From positions 4,623,001 to 4,687,000 of the forward strand of contig NZ_CP015136.1 in NCBI RefSeq assembly GCF_001618865.1: a DNA stretch of 64,000 bases, in the 5' to 3' direction. The notes beneath the pieces were generated by a model. It worked only from the letters and a program-made list of their open reading frames with translations, was not told the origin of the DNA and did no database searches. The stretch is from Luteitalea pratensis. GTDB lineage: Bacteria; Acidobacteriota; Vicinamibacteria; Vicinamibacterales; Vicinamibacteraceae. Shown piece after piece: positions 55,850 through 63,250 of this stretch (position 1 is the first letter of the stretch; the number at the start of each line of letters is the position of its first letter). A program made the position numbers and the translations under genes.

Positions 55850-55925
55850 GTCCCCATCGTCCAGAGGCCCAGGACGCGGCCCTTTCAAGGCTGAAACACG
55901 GGTTCGAATCCCGTTGGGGACGCCA
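55850..55925 (+). tRNA. tRNA-Glu (anticodon TTC)
   Basis: Full cloverleaf by eye: acceptor GTCCCCA pairs with TGGGGAC, the D arm follows, the anticodon loop is CTTTCAA (TTC), the T loop is GTTCGAATC, discriminator G, and encoded CCA (55923-55925). An extended -10-like TGGTATCCT lies about 70 bases upstream. The 3' end is the attachment site of the islands to its right. Confidence 0.95.
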
Positions 55926-56694
55926 CATCCTGTACAGTCGCCAAACCCTCTAAAATCCCGGGCTTTATCGGCGCGTCCCAGCGAATGAGGTCCTCCTCGG
56001 ATCCGCTGTCACACGCCGAGACGACGCCCACGGCCAACGCCTGTTCGGGGCTGAGCGGGTCCTCCAAGAAAATGGGTCCGACGAGCTTCCGCAGGAGGAT
56101 GCGCGCCACGTGGACCTCCCCTCTCAGCACCTCGCGCCACTCGGCGCAACGCTGAAGCAGCGCGTCTCGTAGACGGTCCACGTCCGGCGGTTCCTGTACA
56201 GAGGCGAGGCGTTTGGTTGCCGCCTCGATGCACGCCCGCCGTACTGCGATCTGGTCCGCGACCTCCCGTGGGTCCACACCGTGCGCGATCGACCCGACGA
56301 GCCGCTGCACCTCCGTCTCCAGCCGCTCACGCTCTCGCTCGAGCCGGGGCGTCTCCGCAGGGTCGGTCCCCCGCGCCATCATCGCGAGCAGCGTGTCGAC
56401 GTACGCCGGGCTCAGGACCTCATCCTCGACCATGTCGAGCATGATGTTGTCCGCGTCGAAGATGGGGATGGCCGCCTTGTTGGTGCAGACCCCCGGCTTC
56501 CGCCGCCGTGTGGCGCAAACGTAGACGGGCTCGGGCTTCCACGACGTCGTGTAGGCCTCGAAGTGCCCGCCGCAGCACCCGCACACGAGCATGCCGCCGC
56601 TGAGGAGGTACTTGCCACCGGCGTTCTGAGGAGCGCGCCCCTTGGCCTTGGCCACCTCGGTGCGCTCGCCCCACACGGCCCGCCGTGCGTCTAC
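55885..56694 (-). pseudogene. Serine recombinase 1, C-terminal fragment ending inside tRNA-Glu
   Basis: Only the C-terminal part of a large serine recombinase remains, about 265 residues: VDARRA then GGKYLLSGGMLVCGCCGG (zinc ribbon), VYVCATRRRKPGVC, and a coiled-coil region (ETPRLERERERLETEVQRLV). The final codons run antisense into the tRNA, giving DVASPTGFEPVFQP and a stop in the anticodon loop. That is the mark of integration at the tRNA 3' end. The N-terminal catalytic domain is absent; sequence right of 56694 is unrelated. Confidence 0.85.
55913..55925 (+). repeat. Attachment core 1 (3' end of tRNA-Glu)
   Basis: GTTGGGGACGCCA; the last 11 bases recur at 57803-57813 and 60701-60711, and all 13 at 57801-57813. 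Confidence 0.8.
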
Positions 56695-57745: not shown

Positions 57746-59046
57746 CTACGCGATGCGCCGGTAAGCCCCGTGGAGCGCGCTGTACTGGTCTGGGTTTGCT
57801 GTTGGGGACGCCAAACTTTCCTGGGGCTGTTCACCAGGCTCCAAGTACCTGAAAAGAGAAGCGGTTACGGCGGTTCGAATGAACCGATGGCCGTCGTACG
57901 CGATGCCCTCGGGGAACAACAGCTGCTGGAGCCGCTGCTTGTAGTCCAGCGGCGCCTGTACCCACAGATCCGCGGCGCGCGGCAGGATGCGCTCCGCGAA
58001 CGCCAGGACACCCTCGACATCGATTCGTCGACCGCCTCGGTGTGGTGGTCGATCTGCGAGAGCGTCAGCTCCTCCCGGAGCTTGTCACGCTGCCGGGTAT
58101 ACGTGGCCAGGTCGATGGACTCGGCGTACAGGAACGCCTCGTCGAGCCTGTCGAGCTTGTGGCGCACGCTCTTCACGCGGCGTTCGACATCGGCGGTCCG
58201 ATCTCTCGCCTCGGCACGCCGCTGTTCCCAGGCGTACAGGATGCGGTCCTTGATTAACCGCATGTACCCGGGCGTCGGCTGCAACAACGCGAGTTCGTCG
58301 ACGAAGGCGCCTTCCAGGACGCCCTTGCTGACGCTTCCGGTGCGACAACGGCCCGGGCAGTGGTAGTAGGAACCGCATCTACATCGGGCAGATCGACATC
58401 CCGGAGTGCGGCGTGAGCGCGCGGGGTGACTTCGAGCCGCTGATCGGCGAGGACACGTTCTAACGCGTAGCGGCCGTTGCGTCCGCGTGACCAGCTCCCG
58501 GTGAGCGTCCGCACGTGGCGCGTCGCGATCGGGCCCAGGCGGTGCTCGAGGGCCGTGTGCCGGTCGTGACGCCGCGCCAGCGCAATCACCCGCTGCGTGC
58601 GTTCGCAGCATGTTGCCGAACGTCTGGGGCGATAGCGCACGGTCGCGTCTTGTGCGCAGGCCAGCCTCAGTAGCGCGGCGGATGACGTCCCTGATGGTGA
58701 AGCGTCCCGAGGCCATGTCCTCGAACGCCTGCTTGACCAGGGGTGCCCGGTCGGGATGGAGCACGAGGCTGCTCTTCGACCACTTCGGCGCGTTGAGGTA
58801 GCCGAGCGGTGCCTGGAACGTCCAGCGCCCCAGCGTGAGCGCGGCCTTCATCCCGGCCAGCGTCCGCTCCGATCTGACGTCGTTGTCGAACTGTGCGAAG
58901 GCGGCCAGCACGCCTTCCATCAGCTTGCCCGTGGACGTGTCGTCAATCGGCTCGGTCACCGACCGCAACGAGATGCCCAGGGACTTCAGGTGTGCCCGCA
59001 GCGCGAAGTGGTCAGCGCCACGATCGAGCGTCGCGAGAGTCGCACG
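57746..59046 (-). pseudogene. Serine recombinase 2, truncated and internally scrambled
   Basis: Starting at ALRAHLKSLGISLRSVTEPID (59040), it retains the post-catalytic helix, the recombinase domain (GYLNAPKW, SPQTFGNML), a coiled coil and a C-terminal stretch (DYKQRLQQLLFPEGIAYDGHRF) that is out of frame with the middle. Between 58368 and 58607 two pieces, YIGQIDIPECGVSARGDFEP and AVLEGRVPVVTPRQRNHP, lie on the plus strand, with LTGSWSRGRNGRYA between them on the minus strand. The N-terminal catalytic domain is missing. The C-terminus crosses the second att copy (ESLASPTANPD) and stops at 57746. Confidence 0.85.
57801..57813 (+). repeat. Attachment core 2
   Basis: GTTGGGGACGCCA, identical over 13 bases to the tRNA-Glu 3' end; inside the C-terminal codons of recombinase 2. 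Confidence 0.8.
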
Positions 59047-59237: not shown

Positions 59238-59336
59238 TCACAGAAGCTCGTCAAGCGGGCCGCTCACGCCGCGACCGCGCGGTTCAGTACGTGCGAGTAG
59301 ATGATCGTCGTGCTGACGTCGCCCGGGCCGAGGAGT
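59238..59336 (-). pseudogene. Tyrosine recombinase (integron-integrase-like) C-terminal remnant
   Basis: The minus strand reads LLGPGDVSTTIIYSHVLNR and, after a 2-base insertion, GRGVSGPLDELL and a stop. This is the C-terminal signature of XerC/IntI-type integrases, including the active-site Tyr of IYSHVLNR. The conserved His in LLGH is replaced by Pro. Upstream sequence to 59569 stays open but does not resemble an integrase. Confidence 0.7.
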
Positions 59337-59565
59337 CCCCCGCCTGCCACTATTCGTGGCGCCGCGTCGCCGGGTGAACGCGCGCAGGCGGCGGGTGTTG
59401 GCACTTGTACTTGGGCGCGGGGTTGGCGGTTTTCCGCGCTGGCCTGTCGGGCGAGGCAGACAGGGAAGACGCGAGAAGCCGGTGGCGGGGCGAGCGCCCT
59501 CGTCTTGACCGAGCAGGGGCCTCGGCTACCCGGGCCGCTTCGTACGACGTCCGACAGCACCGGCC

Positions 59566-59874
59566 TCATTCTGCGCCGTCTGCAGATCGTAGTCGGGCCT
59601 GCAGGTGCAACCAGAACCGCGCCGGCATTTTGAATCGCCGCTCGAGCCGAATCGCGGTGTCGGACGTCGCCGAACGTTTGCCCAGCACCAGCTCATTGAG
59701 GCGGTTGCGGCTGATGTCCAGTTCATCGGCCACGACGCTCTGCTGGAGGCCGAGCGGACTCAGGAATTCCTGCAGCAGCATCTCGCCGGGATGAACGAGC
59801 GGGCCGAGCACCGCGGAACCGCGCGGCAGGTTCGCTGGCTCAGTGGGATTTGTCGCACCGGACGTCGAAGGCAT
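59566..59874 (-). CDS. higA: HigA family antitoxin (XRE)
   Basis: Protein of 102 residues with the HigA pattern: VHPGEMLLQEFLSPLGL, helix-turn-helix SVVADELDISRNRLNELVLGKR, and SDTAIRLERRFKMPARFWLHLQA. It binds DNA and neutralises HigB. The annotated ATG overlaps the higB stop by 35 bases; a GTG at 59811 would fit the usual spacing better. Its toxin gene upstream is truncated, so it may be an orphan. Confidence 0.9.
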   Translation of the reverse strand: MPSTSGATNPTEPANLPRGSAVLGPLVHPGEMLLQEFLSPLGLQQSVVADELDISRNRLNELVLGKRSATSDTAIRLERRFKMPARFWLHLQARLRSADGAE

Positions 59875-59970
59875 CGTGTCCCTCCCATCGAAAGGTGATC
59901 CGGTGCTGATCGTTCACCCGGATGGCGTGGCGATGATTGAGCTCAACACCGAGGACGAGCTCGACGCCCC
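59840..59970 (-). pseudogene. higB: HigB toxin, C-terminal remnant
   Basis: Only the last 40 or so residues align with the RelE/HigB fold: VELVLG then HAIRVNDQHRITFRWEGHD. The mRNA-cleaving toxin normally has about 90 residues; the frame upstream (to 60025) is unrelated Arg-rich sequence running up to the DUF5615 stop. Probably inactive. Confidence 0.75.
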
Positions 59971-60021
59971 GGACCCGGCCTGTGACGCGACGTCGTTCCT
60001 GCCGAGACCGCGGCGCCGAAC

Positions 60022-60378
60022 TCATCGCGCCGTTCTGAATCGCTCCCGCCCCTTCGGAGGTATGCCGACGCGGCGCACTTCACCCAGCCCGACGCCACCT
60101 ATAGCCTGAAGCAGGTCAGGGATGACAGGCTGCAGGTCGGCCATGCGGTTCGACGCGGCGCCGATGACCACCACGCCGAACGGGAGGTTGACCAAGTCTT
60201 GTTGGTGCTCGATGTTGCCGTCCATGGTGACGAAGACGTCGCACTCGCCGCCGGCGCGTTTCAGGAGGGCGCCGTTCTTCGTACCCGCCCACCCCAGTCC
60301 CTGGACGGTGGACACTGCGTGGCCGGGGATCACCCTCGCCAGATCGTGTGGCAGGTTCTCGTCAAGCAGGACGCGCAC
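60022..60378 (-). CDS. DUF5615 PIN-like putative toxin
   Basis: Protein of 118 residues. PIN-like acids are visible: D6-E7 in VLLDENLP, D47 in ECDVFVTMDGNIEHQQD with a further Asp, and the closing VVVIGAAS strand. The family pairs with DUF433 antitoxins as a VapBC-like toxin-antitoxin module. GTG start, overlapping the DUF433 gene by 17 bases. Both genes look intact inside the decayed element. Confidence 0.85.
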   Translation of the reverse strand: MRVLLDENLPHDLARVIPGHAVSTVQGLGWAGTKNGALLKRAGGECDVFVTMDGNIEHQQDLVNLPFGVVVIGAASNRMADLQPVIPDLLQAIGGVGLGEVRRVGIPPKGRERFRTAR

Positions 60379-60586
60379 TGGTCAGCAACGTCTCTCGCGC
60401 GAACTCGAGGGCTTCGATGGCCTGCTTCCGTGGGACTGATGGAAACTGCCGGAGGAACTCGTCCAGCGTCTCCCCTGCCTCCAGGTAATCGAACAGGGAC
60501 TGCACCGGGACGCGGGTGCCGACGAACACGGGCGTGCCGCCCAGGATGTCGGGATCGGAGTGCACCACTCGTGAACTGCGGGGCAT
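60362..60586 (-). CDS. DUF433 antitoxin
   Basis: Protein of 74 residues with the DUF433 signature: SDPDILGGTPVFVGTRVPVQSLFDYLEAG, then LDEFLRQFPSVPRKQAIEAL and EFARETLL, a small winged-helix DNA-binding fold. It heads the operon with the DUF5615 toxin. ATG at 60586 preferred over GTG two codons upstream. Confidence 0.88.
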   Translation of the reverse strand: MPRSSRVVHSDPDILGGTPVFVGTRVPVQSLFDYLEAGETLDEFLRQFPSVPRKQAIEALEFARETLLTSARPA

Positions 60587-60631
60587 GACCACGTCAGTAT
60601 AGCTTCGGCAGCGCAGTTGGCCCGGCCCCCG

Positions 60632-62310
60632 TCAGGCGGCGAGCCGCAGACCGTCGACGGCCCGCAGCCACTGCTCGAGCTGGTTCCAACTCGCCCACAC
60701 TGGGGACGCCAACAAACATGAACGGCCGCGAAGTACGCGATCAAGTGCGATCGCGCCCTCGAATTTGAGGCACGGCTCACCCTTCCCTGCCTGCGGCACA
60801 CACATTAGCGGTCCGTGGAGCAGCGCCCGCAGCACCTGGCGGCCAGCCTCAATGGCGCCGGTCAGCAGCCCTCGCCAGTCCTCCAGGTCCCGCAACAGTT
60901 CGGCGCGGAGGCCCCGCCGATCGACGGCCATCGGCGTATGCCGGCGCAGCGCCTCGAGGTCTGCCTCCACGGCCGCCCGCTCTCCGTCACGCCCCTGCAA
61001 GAGCTGCACGAGCGACGCGATCGGGCCGCCGGCGGCAATCGCAGCCGCCAAGCGGACGCACTCCGCCGAGAGCGCGTCGGTCTGGCGCTCCGAGTGCGAG
61101 AGCCGGGAGCGCGAAGGACCGGCCTCGAGCTGGTCGAGCGCGAGCTCAACAGCCTGCGTCAGGACCTCGGGCCGGAGGACGTCATCCCGGAGCGCCTCGA
61201 GGACCGCCGTGTCGACGTCCTCCATGGGCGTGAGTTGGGACACCGGGCAGACGCTCTTGCCGCGGTCGTACGAGGACGAGCAGACGTAGAAAGCCGCACG
61301 CCGCCGCCCATGGGAGCGCGTCACGACTTTTAGCCCGCCGCCGCAGTGCGCGCACCTGGCGAAACCGGGAAGCAGGTACCGCGAATCGCGGTCATTGACG
61401 CGGCCGTAGGCACGGCCGCCGGTCGCCTCGAGGTACGCAGCGCGGCGGGCCTTCCGCACGCCGTGCACGGTTTCCCAGACGGCCTCCGGGACGATCCGGA
61501 GCTAGGGGGCCTCGAGCCGGATCCACTCGCCCTGGTCGCGCTCCGATCGCCGCGCCTGCCCCCATGAGTCGCGCTTCCGGCTCTGGTTCCAGATCACCAC
61601 GCCGCGATAGAGCTCGCGCTGTAGCACCGCAAAGACCGAGGACGGCGCCCAAGCGACGGGCCGACCCTGTTGGGCGCGCGGCGCGATGGCGCCTTCGTCG
61701 TTCAGCAAGCGAGCCAGGCGGCGCACGCCGACGCCCTCTGCCGCGAGGTCGAAGATGCGGCGGACGACGGCCGCCTCGGCCTCGACGATGCGTCGCTCGA
61801 CGTGCGACCGTGAGCCGTCAGCGAGCCGGATCTCGACGTTCTCGTACCCGAATACCCGACCGCCGGTGACGTGACCCGCGCGCGCCTTCCGCTGCATCGC
61901 GTCGTAGGTCCGCTGACGCGCCTTCTCTCGCTCGAGCTCGTCTGCAAAGGCCGTTGCGGACATCAGCAGTTTGTCGGTCGGCGTGTCGAGCGTGCGCTCC
62001 CGGCCTCGAGGTAGAACCAAACGCGGACGCCGGCCTGTACCAACTGCTTCAGGGCGTACGCCGTCTCGATCGCCTCACGGCCGAGACGCGATTCCTCCGA
62101 CATCACGAGCACGTCGAACGGCGCGCGTGGCCGAAGTGCATTCATGAGACGTACGAAGCCAGGCCGCGCGGCGAACTCTGCGCCGCTCACGCCGTCATCG
62201 ACGTAGACGTGCGCCTCGTCGACCTGCCAGCCGTGGCGCGCGGCGAACTCTCTGGCGTGTTCAACCTGCCTCGTGACTGAGCGCGCCTCATCTGCAACGC
62301 CGCTGGCATG
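60632..62310 (-). pseudogene. Serine recombinase 3, frameshifted with an in-frame amber codon
   Basis: Nearly full length. The resolvase domain begins at GVADEARSVTRQVEHAREF, so about 15 residues with the catalytic Ser are missing, and it keeps SEESRLGREAIETAYALKQL. A one-base deletion near 62008 shifts the frame before TLDTPTDKLLMS; the recombinase domain follows (GGRVFGYEN). Then a TAG at 61503-61505 stands where the frame expects GAG (EAP-stop-LRIVPEAVW). The zinc ribbon (FARCAHCGGGLKV), a coiled coil, and a C-terminus crossing the third att copy (LLASPVWASW) follow. Inactive. Confidence 0.88.
60701..60711 (+). repeat. Attachment core 3
   Basis: TGGGGACGCCA, identical to the tRNA-Glu 3' end over 11 bases (12 with copy 2); inside the C-terminal codons of recombinase 3. 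Confidence 0.75.
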
Positions 62311-62312
62311 GA

Positions 62313-63250
62313 ACCGCAGACCCATCCGAGAATCGTTTCGAAATCGTCAAGGATCTCGGGCCGAATCTCCAGCGCGACGACGGTCCCATCCCATCCCTTG
62401 AAATCCGCGAACATCCGGTGCTTGTCTCGTTCTGGTTCGGGAAACAACGTCCCCTGCTCGCCGCCGTCGTCAGACCTGAACGTGCGATAGGCGGCGCGTC
62501 CGGATACGACAGCGAAGTAGCCCCCCGTGCCCTTCGCAATTGACCGCGTGACGTAAAGTCCCGCGCCAGCGTTATTCGGCGTGCCGTACATTCCACGGAT
62601 CGCGCCGGTGACGCCCGGCTTGAGCGACTCATACACGGCGCGAGCGTCGTTGCCGCGGAGCTCCGGGTACGCGGCTGCCAAGTGATTCGGGATTCCGATC
62701 CCGCAGTCCGCAACCGCAATCGAGATCCGCGATGGCGCCGCGCCGACGAAGTAGTGGGCACACAAATGCACCATCGGGCGAGCTCGAATGCTCTATCACA
62801 TTTCTCAACAGTTCCGAGAGACAGTACTGAACCGCATGCAGCACGTCGCGCCGACCGTCCAAGTGGAGTAACGCCGAGATATCGGCTACCGCCGCGCGGA
62901 TGTCATCGTTCGTCTTCACGTTCCGCAAGGGTATGAACCGACCTGCTTCCTCGTGCGTACGGATTGCGAACGGCGACTCGATACCCAGGACCTCAAACAG
63001 CTTCATCCGGTCGAGGTACATTCCTCGTTCGATGTTTTCGACTTCGATCTTGTAGCCGTCTCGGATCATGCGTGAGCCCCACGCTCCCGCCATGGCGACG
63101 CCGATAGGCTCAACGTGCATATAGCGCGGGTGTAGCGTCACGATTGCACGGTCGCCCGGCGCGCCGAGAAAGTCGTTGACAGACCACATGTGATTGACCG
63201 CCTCGACTGTTGCGCTGTTCGGCAGAAAAATTTCGGCATTCAGCTCCAGC
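62313..63250 (-). pseudogene. GHKL-type ATP-binding protein, frameshifted and truncated
   Basis: The N-terminal part (MWSVNDFLG, IVTLHPRYMHVEPIGVAM, IESPFAIRTHEEAGRF) leads to the GHKL N-box LSELLRNVIEHSSSPDGAF. There the frame breaks at a short GT run (about 62765). The other frame continues with ADCGIGIPNHLAA (G1 box), GAGLYVTRSIAKGTGG (G2) and DGTVVALEI. At 62313 it runs into recombinase sequence. Start uncertain (near 63250, non-ATG). Histidine-kinase-like or anti-sigma-like ATPase; role unknown. Confidence 0.7.

Follow-up and report, generated by a model that had tools for sequence, protein, structure and literature searches.

Shufflons produce content-conserving reordering with reused breakpoints, and in shufflons and phase-variable invertons adjacent segments are inverted and reordered with no change in content. 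Chromothripsis, a eukaryotic process of local shattering and religation, leaves clustered breaks, a new order and orientation of fragments, and joints that are blunt or of short homology. Scars of non-homologous end joining (NHEJ) in Streptomyces ambofaciens, as described in excerpts of PMC5869714, hold short captured genomic pieces (30, 42 and 83 bp) at the repaired break, with microhomology of 1-6 nt in half of the scars and nucleotide additions, among them single-nucleotide ones, in 40%. Human-chimpanzee microinversions, in the excerpted parts of PMC8755829, are single segments of 17-33 nt that lie in place as their reverse complement and are flanked by inverted repeats.

Here, we describe a rearrangement that resembles each of these systems in part. 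It lies in a stretch of 64,000 nucleotides of the Luteitalea pratensis genome (contig NZ_CP015136.1, positions 4,623,001 to 4,687,000; hereafter the window), within what remains of a large serine recombinase gene on the minus strand (59013-57796). In contrast to chromothripsis, which affects a large part of a chromosome, the rearrangement spans about 240 bp of a bacterial gene, involves three fragments and has lost none of them. The Streptomyces scars result from insertion of a fragment at an induced break (PMC5869714, excerpts), whereas here three adjacent fragments are permuted in place with no gain of sequence. Unlike the microinversions, it comprises three segments of 66-94 nt with a changed order and no inverted repeats above chance; unlike shufflons and invertons, it has neither recognition sites nor inverted repeats and is present in the assembly in a single arrangement. 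An equivalent bacterial case was not found in the open-licence literature searched, which is no proof of absence. The scramble resembles a minute accident of shattering and rejoining more than it does a functioning device, and what makes it interesting is that it records cleanly, at a very small scale, how several fragments were rearranged.

Structure of the rearranged gene

Read in the sense of the gene (minus strand), intact relatives have the block order A-B-C-D-E, whereas the window has A-C'-D-B'-E, with the prime marking inversion. Segment A (58605-59013, minus strand) is the 5'-truncated beginning, which covers the end of the resolvase domain and part of the recombinase domain and terminates with ...CTGC. 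It is followed by segment C (58529-58604, plus strand; 76 nt), which is inverted and codes for RAQAVLEGRVPVVTPRQRNHPLRAF, and by segment D (58463-58528, minus strand; 66 nt), which has kept its direct orientation, codes for RATCGR / LTGSWSRGRNGRYA and is now located upstream of B. Segment B (58369-58462, plus strand; 94 nt) is inverted, codes for RIYIGQIDIPECGVSARGDFEPLIGEDTF and has moved beside segment E (about 57796-58368, minus strand), the remaining recombinase from YYHCPGRC on, in which tblastn places a frameshift at about 58024. Compared to the relatives, C has a deletion of 9 nt and D one of 4 nt (both read by eye from the alignment). The scramble as a whole occupies 58369-58604 (236 bp), in the stretch of the recombinase domain and zinc ribbon. 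Two plus-strand segments around a minus-strand one had been noticed in a sequence-only reading of this DNA, and the comparison with relatives confirms them, with coordinates within a few bases. An open reading frame of 367 aa (57865-58968) continues uninterrupted across the scramble, so that automatic annotation could hide it; more generally, a reading frame through a scrambled stretch may pass as an ordinary gene.

Block limits and orientations were obtained by BLAST against 13 subjects (12 relative stretches and the region of a paralogue in the same genome) and by comparison with 14 intact references, namely the own paralogue and 13 relatives from other genomes; the protein identity of these references to the first of them is 65-85%. 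By BLAST, segment A matches six of the 12 relative stretches at 72-81% DNA identity across 410 nt and the own paralogue at 69.5%; the match is shorter or missing in the other six stretches, several of which are truncated genes. The end of A falls at gene-sense position 797 in eight of the 13 subjects, the others being truncated there or ending earlier. Segment E begins at gene-sense 1031-1033 in 12 of the 13 and at 1084 in L053, which has Ns there; against L049 it is 77% identical across 576 nt. Segment B matches on the strand opposite to E in 12 of the 13 subjects (94-110 nt at 69-78% identity), the exception being L057, which has no such gene part. Reverse-strand matches to C were found in eight subjects (69-81% identity), and short same-strand matches to D in ten (75-84%). 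When B, C and D were scored in both orientations against the 14 references, the orientation given here scored higher in 41 of 42 comparisons; the exception was C in L037 (28 vs 31 reversed), and C in L038 was a near-tie (30 vs 27). Judged from these alignments, the pattern is far beyond chance.

Tiling of the segments and integrity of the assembly

In a tiling test, B, C and D of the window were each placed separately in the 14 references and the unaccounted bases were counted; segment ends had been set by eye beforehand, and the test was not blind. The pieces fall in the order B-C-D in the references and tile the gene almost exactly. No base is unaccounted for at the A|B boundary in any of the 14 references, nor at B|C in 13 of them (-4 in the remaining one), and the D|E boundary has a value of -1, i.e., one base used twice, in all 14. 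At C|D the value is -2 in seven references and ranges from -16 to +16 in the other seven, with small deletions and loose alignment.

A scramble that is found in its own genome only could suggest an assembly or consensus artefact, as the sequence-only reading had allowed. The genome, however, is a single contig of 7,480,314 bases, and was published for strain HEG_-6_39 at 7,480,314 bp as a complete PacBio RSII/HGAP3 assembly of QV60 with an Illumina quality step (PMC4882960). The PacBio input of 97,934 reads with a mean of 13,738 bp (PMC4882960) corresponds to a depth of about 180x, as computed from read count and mean. Reads of such length would span the locus many times, which makes an assembly error of this form very unlikely, and a tiling free of overlaps and Ns would be unlike the errors expected of overlap assembly. 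With these published data at hand, we consider an artefact scarcely credible.

Joints, inversion histories and breakpoint sequences

Alignment to intact homologues with a search for microhomology, a check that had been proposed earlier, allowed the breakpoints to be placed. As judged by eye, up to 2 nt (CG) are shared at the A/C' joint, the D/B' and B'/E joints are blunt, and at C'/D the joint is either blunt or unclear over a few bases, so that shared sequence amounts to 0-2 nt with C'/D uncertain by several bases.

An enumeration of inversion histories found no path of one or two steps but six of three steps, with four breakpoints that are reused. This bears out the earlier claims that the order goes beyond a single inversion and that, within about 240 bases, it requires several reversals or else an inverted transposition. 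A series of three small inversions, or an inversion combined with an inverted transposition at the same reused breakpoints, would by nature conserve content. Yet four breakpoints for three inversions imply two exact reuses, at sites that lack inverted repeats above chance: the inverted runs that bound the inversion steps measure 2-5 nt, in every history one or more steps have just 2 nt, and random pairs have an inverted run of at least 5 nt in 11% and of at least 4 nt in 33% of cases. Nor was an intermediate arrangement seen in 162 genomes of the order or 396 of the phylum, none of which is a near strain with the locus and among which all similar genomes are too distant to show one. Serial inversion appears improbable to us.

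Reused breakpoints and conserved content are also the outcome expected of a shufflon-type system, and site-specific shuffling could in principle be performed by the product of the gene itself, by a paralogue (one full-length close paralogue is located in the same genome, at 6.812 Mb) or by a shufflon or inverton invertase. However, the breakpoints share no motif, their likeness being no greater than that of random sets (a fraction of 0.34 scores as high), and neither inverted repeats above chance nor recombinase sites were found at the boundaries. Within 3 bases of the joints there is no dinucleotide that all four have in common; within 4-5 bases they share GA/TC if the strand is ignored, which we take as chance. 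The scrambled copy, moreover, is without its N-terminus. The suggestion that a recombinase had acted on its own gene hence found no support, and we hold site-specific shuffling of any kind to be very improbable.

A third possibility is template switching during replication (MMBIR or fork stalling), by which C would have been copied backwards, D forwards and B backwards before copying resumed at E. In the excerpts of PMC8755829 template switching is a described source of short inverted segments, and the inverted runs of 3-5 nt at some steps of the present locus are as short as the shortest repeats given there; the A/C' joint, furthermore, can share 2 nt. The microinversions treated in those excerpts are, however, all flanked by inverted repeats, whereas the runs here do not exceed chance, and the region of an intact relative folds no better than its shuffles (z 0.40; 69 of 100 shuffles fold as well or better), a result that speaks against hairpin-driven switching. 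In addition, almost the whole ancestral sequence appears a single time, and at three of the four boundaries the pieces meet with a precision of about 1 nt, C|D being looser. A series of copying steps should have produced duplications and gaps, and therefore fits poorly; on a rough estimate, such exactness would arise from independent switches about once in a million. Template switching had been among the causes first suggested for this locus; it stands as a possible route, but one that accounts poorly for the single use of bases and the precise boundaries, and we rate it as rather unlikely. Taken together, the lack of repeats, of a motif and of an unusual fold at the breakpoints argues against self-action, shufflons and repeat-driven template switching, and template switching and serial inversion share most of the roughly one half of the probability that lies outside a single break-and-rejoin event.

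State and age of the gene

Homology to intact genes ends at 59013-59014 (BLAST, tblastn). The Pfam Resolvase profile is matched with an E value of 1.7e-5 at positions 97-144 of 145 only, and residues 1-89 of intact proteins had no match in the window in the tblastn results for two of the seven query proteins. The gene therefore lacks a complete resolvase catalytic N-terminal domain. The Recombinase domain that should follow scored 17.4 bits, below the cut-off of 21.1, and no profile match to the zinc ribbon was obtained in the reading frame. Being 5'-truncated, frameshifted and scrambled, the gene is a pseudogene, a remnant of its family and no working member, and no function is implied for the scramble.

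Between block A and L049 there are 12 differences at first, 8 at second and 59 at third codon positions, a skew like that of the intact pair L049-L050 (23, 27 and 135 across 850 nt). The skew is less pronounced in block E (22, 13, 49), and in block B it depends on the reference (2, 4, 9 vs L049; 7, 7, 7 vs L052). From this skew, a simple count on short blocks, we infer that selection probably acted on the gene during much of the time since its separation, and on the same count the damage looks recent relative to the divergence of about 20% from its relatives. A second, broken copy in the same genome (6.826-6.827 Mb) was considered as a deletion with filler and reads as a plain deletion.

Search for the arrangement in other genomes

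No exact match to a degenerate pattern spanning the B'/E joint was found in the genome contig collection, from which the own genome was possibly left out. A 331-bp query of the scramble gave matches in 74 of 162 genomes of the order (E <= 0.01; four candidates scored per genome) and in six of 396 genomes of the phylum (E <= 1e-8; two candidates scored per genome), both counts including the own genome and the two samples overlapping. Among the candidates scored, no full-length match was found outside the own genome. The better matches in relatives are single blocks. Some matches extend past a joint by as much as about 20 nt (e.g., query 183-284 and 146-218 in genomes of the order) and some weak, short matches straddle one; we read these as alignment extension or chance.

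Further scrambled copies were sought in 138 sequences (137 loci, many overlapping, and the window), of which 135 had tblastn matches, by a scan that would miss very short pieces. A nearby match on the opposite strand was seen in eight of the 138, four of them representing the own locus. L118 and L120 were read as separate genes on opposite strands, and L022 and L114 are one place in genome G022 with a deletion plus a single inverted piece: a broken copy of the same recombinase family in a genome of the same order (L022; G022:C119, 1309-1815), which has lost about 470 nt and, directly after the gap, carries about 185 nt in inverted orientation. The scramble is apparently a rare, clean and private mutation.

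A proposed break and rejoin by end joining

Cut-and-rejoin by end joining was absent from the three causes first offered for the scramble. The conservation of content favours cutting and rejoining over copying, and simultaneous breaks would account for the boundaries without recourse to coincidence. Four clustered double-strand breaks in the recombinase gene would have released fragments of about 94, 76 and 66 bp, which would then have been religated as A-C'-D-B'-E by the Ku/LigD pathway of NHEJ, leaving near-blunt joints with 0-2 nt shared and a single 1-nt duplication. Blunt joints or very short microhomology with occasional 1-nt additions are typical of NHEJ, and the joints of 0-2 nt and the 1-nt overlap at D|E agree with this.

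The host, a cultured soil bacterium, possesses Ku and several LigD-like genes. Ku is encoded by one 355-aa open reading frame in the genome (148.8 bits), and the LigD Prim-Pol domain, by which LigD was recognized, has five matches, four of them in open reading frames of 450-863 aa at 268-304 bits. These genes indicate a capacity for end joining, not its use. The fifth Prim-Pol match is partial and is located in a 101-aa open frame (G000:C1:4701825-4701977) about 15 kb past the end of the window.

It is physically demanding to place four breaks within 236 bp and keep all three short fragments, and even two breaks about 20 nt apart are argued to be highly unlikely in the excerpts of PMC8755829. 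For half of the references, moreover, the C|D boundary can be placed only to within several bases. Weighing this against the nearly exact tiling, we give about an even chance to a single cluster of breaks that was sealed again by end joining, a reading in which the single event, the double-stranded nature of the breaks and their sealing by end joining are all presumed. With somewhat less confidence, and short of even, we tentatively propose that the locus is a natural, content-conserving micro-chromothripsis, in which four breaks within 240 bp shattered the gene and NHEJ put it together again in a new order, with all fragments kept.

If end joining was indeed responsible, bacterial end joining would be able to reorder several very short fragments at once; if serial inversion or copying was responsible instead, the locus would be a rare curiosity. 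The scramble also provides a signature that can be searched for in other pseudogenes, namely exact tiling, near-blunt joints and a lack of repeats. In our view the scramble is no system; it is a mutation of a dead mobile gene, apparently private and probably recent.

Neighbouring genes

The scrambled gene is the second of three serine recombinase genes in a row on the minus strand (55885-56676, 57796-59013 and 60632-62325), all of which look broken. Of recombinase 1 only the C-terminal part is present, and recombinase 3 is split over several frames. In searches that scored two candidates per genome, recombinase 3 aligned on one strand, at best over query positions 39-1095 of 1741, and for recombinase 1 the longest of the matches listed measured about 57 nt and lay at its tRNA end. 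Just upstream of the truncation at 59013, a minus-strand open reading frame (59264-59569) ending in DVSTTIIYSHVLNRAVAA looks like the tail of a tyrosine recombinase, and small minus-strand open reading frames further on (60022-60592 and 59566-60025) resemble toxin-antitoxin pairs (DUF5615/DUF433-like and HigA-like). A tRNA-Glu gene on the plus strand (55850-55925) overlaps the 3' end of the recombinase 1 reading frame, and this overlap may mark a tRNA attachment site. The tail of recombinase 1, TGFEPVFQP, resembles the GIEP tails with which the reading frames of several intact relatives end.
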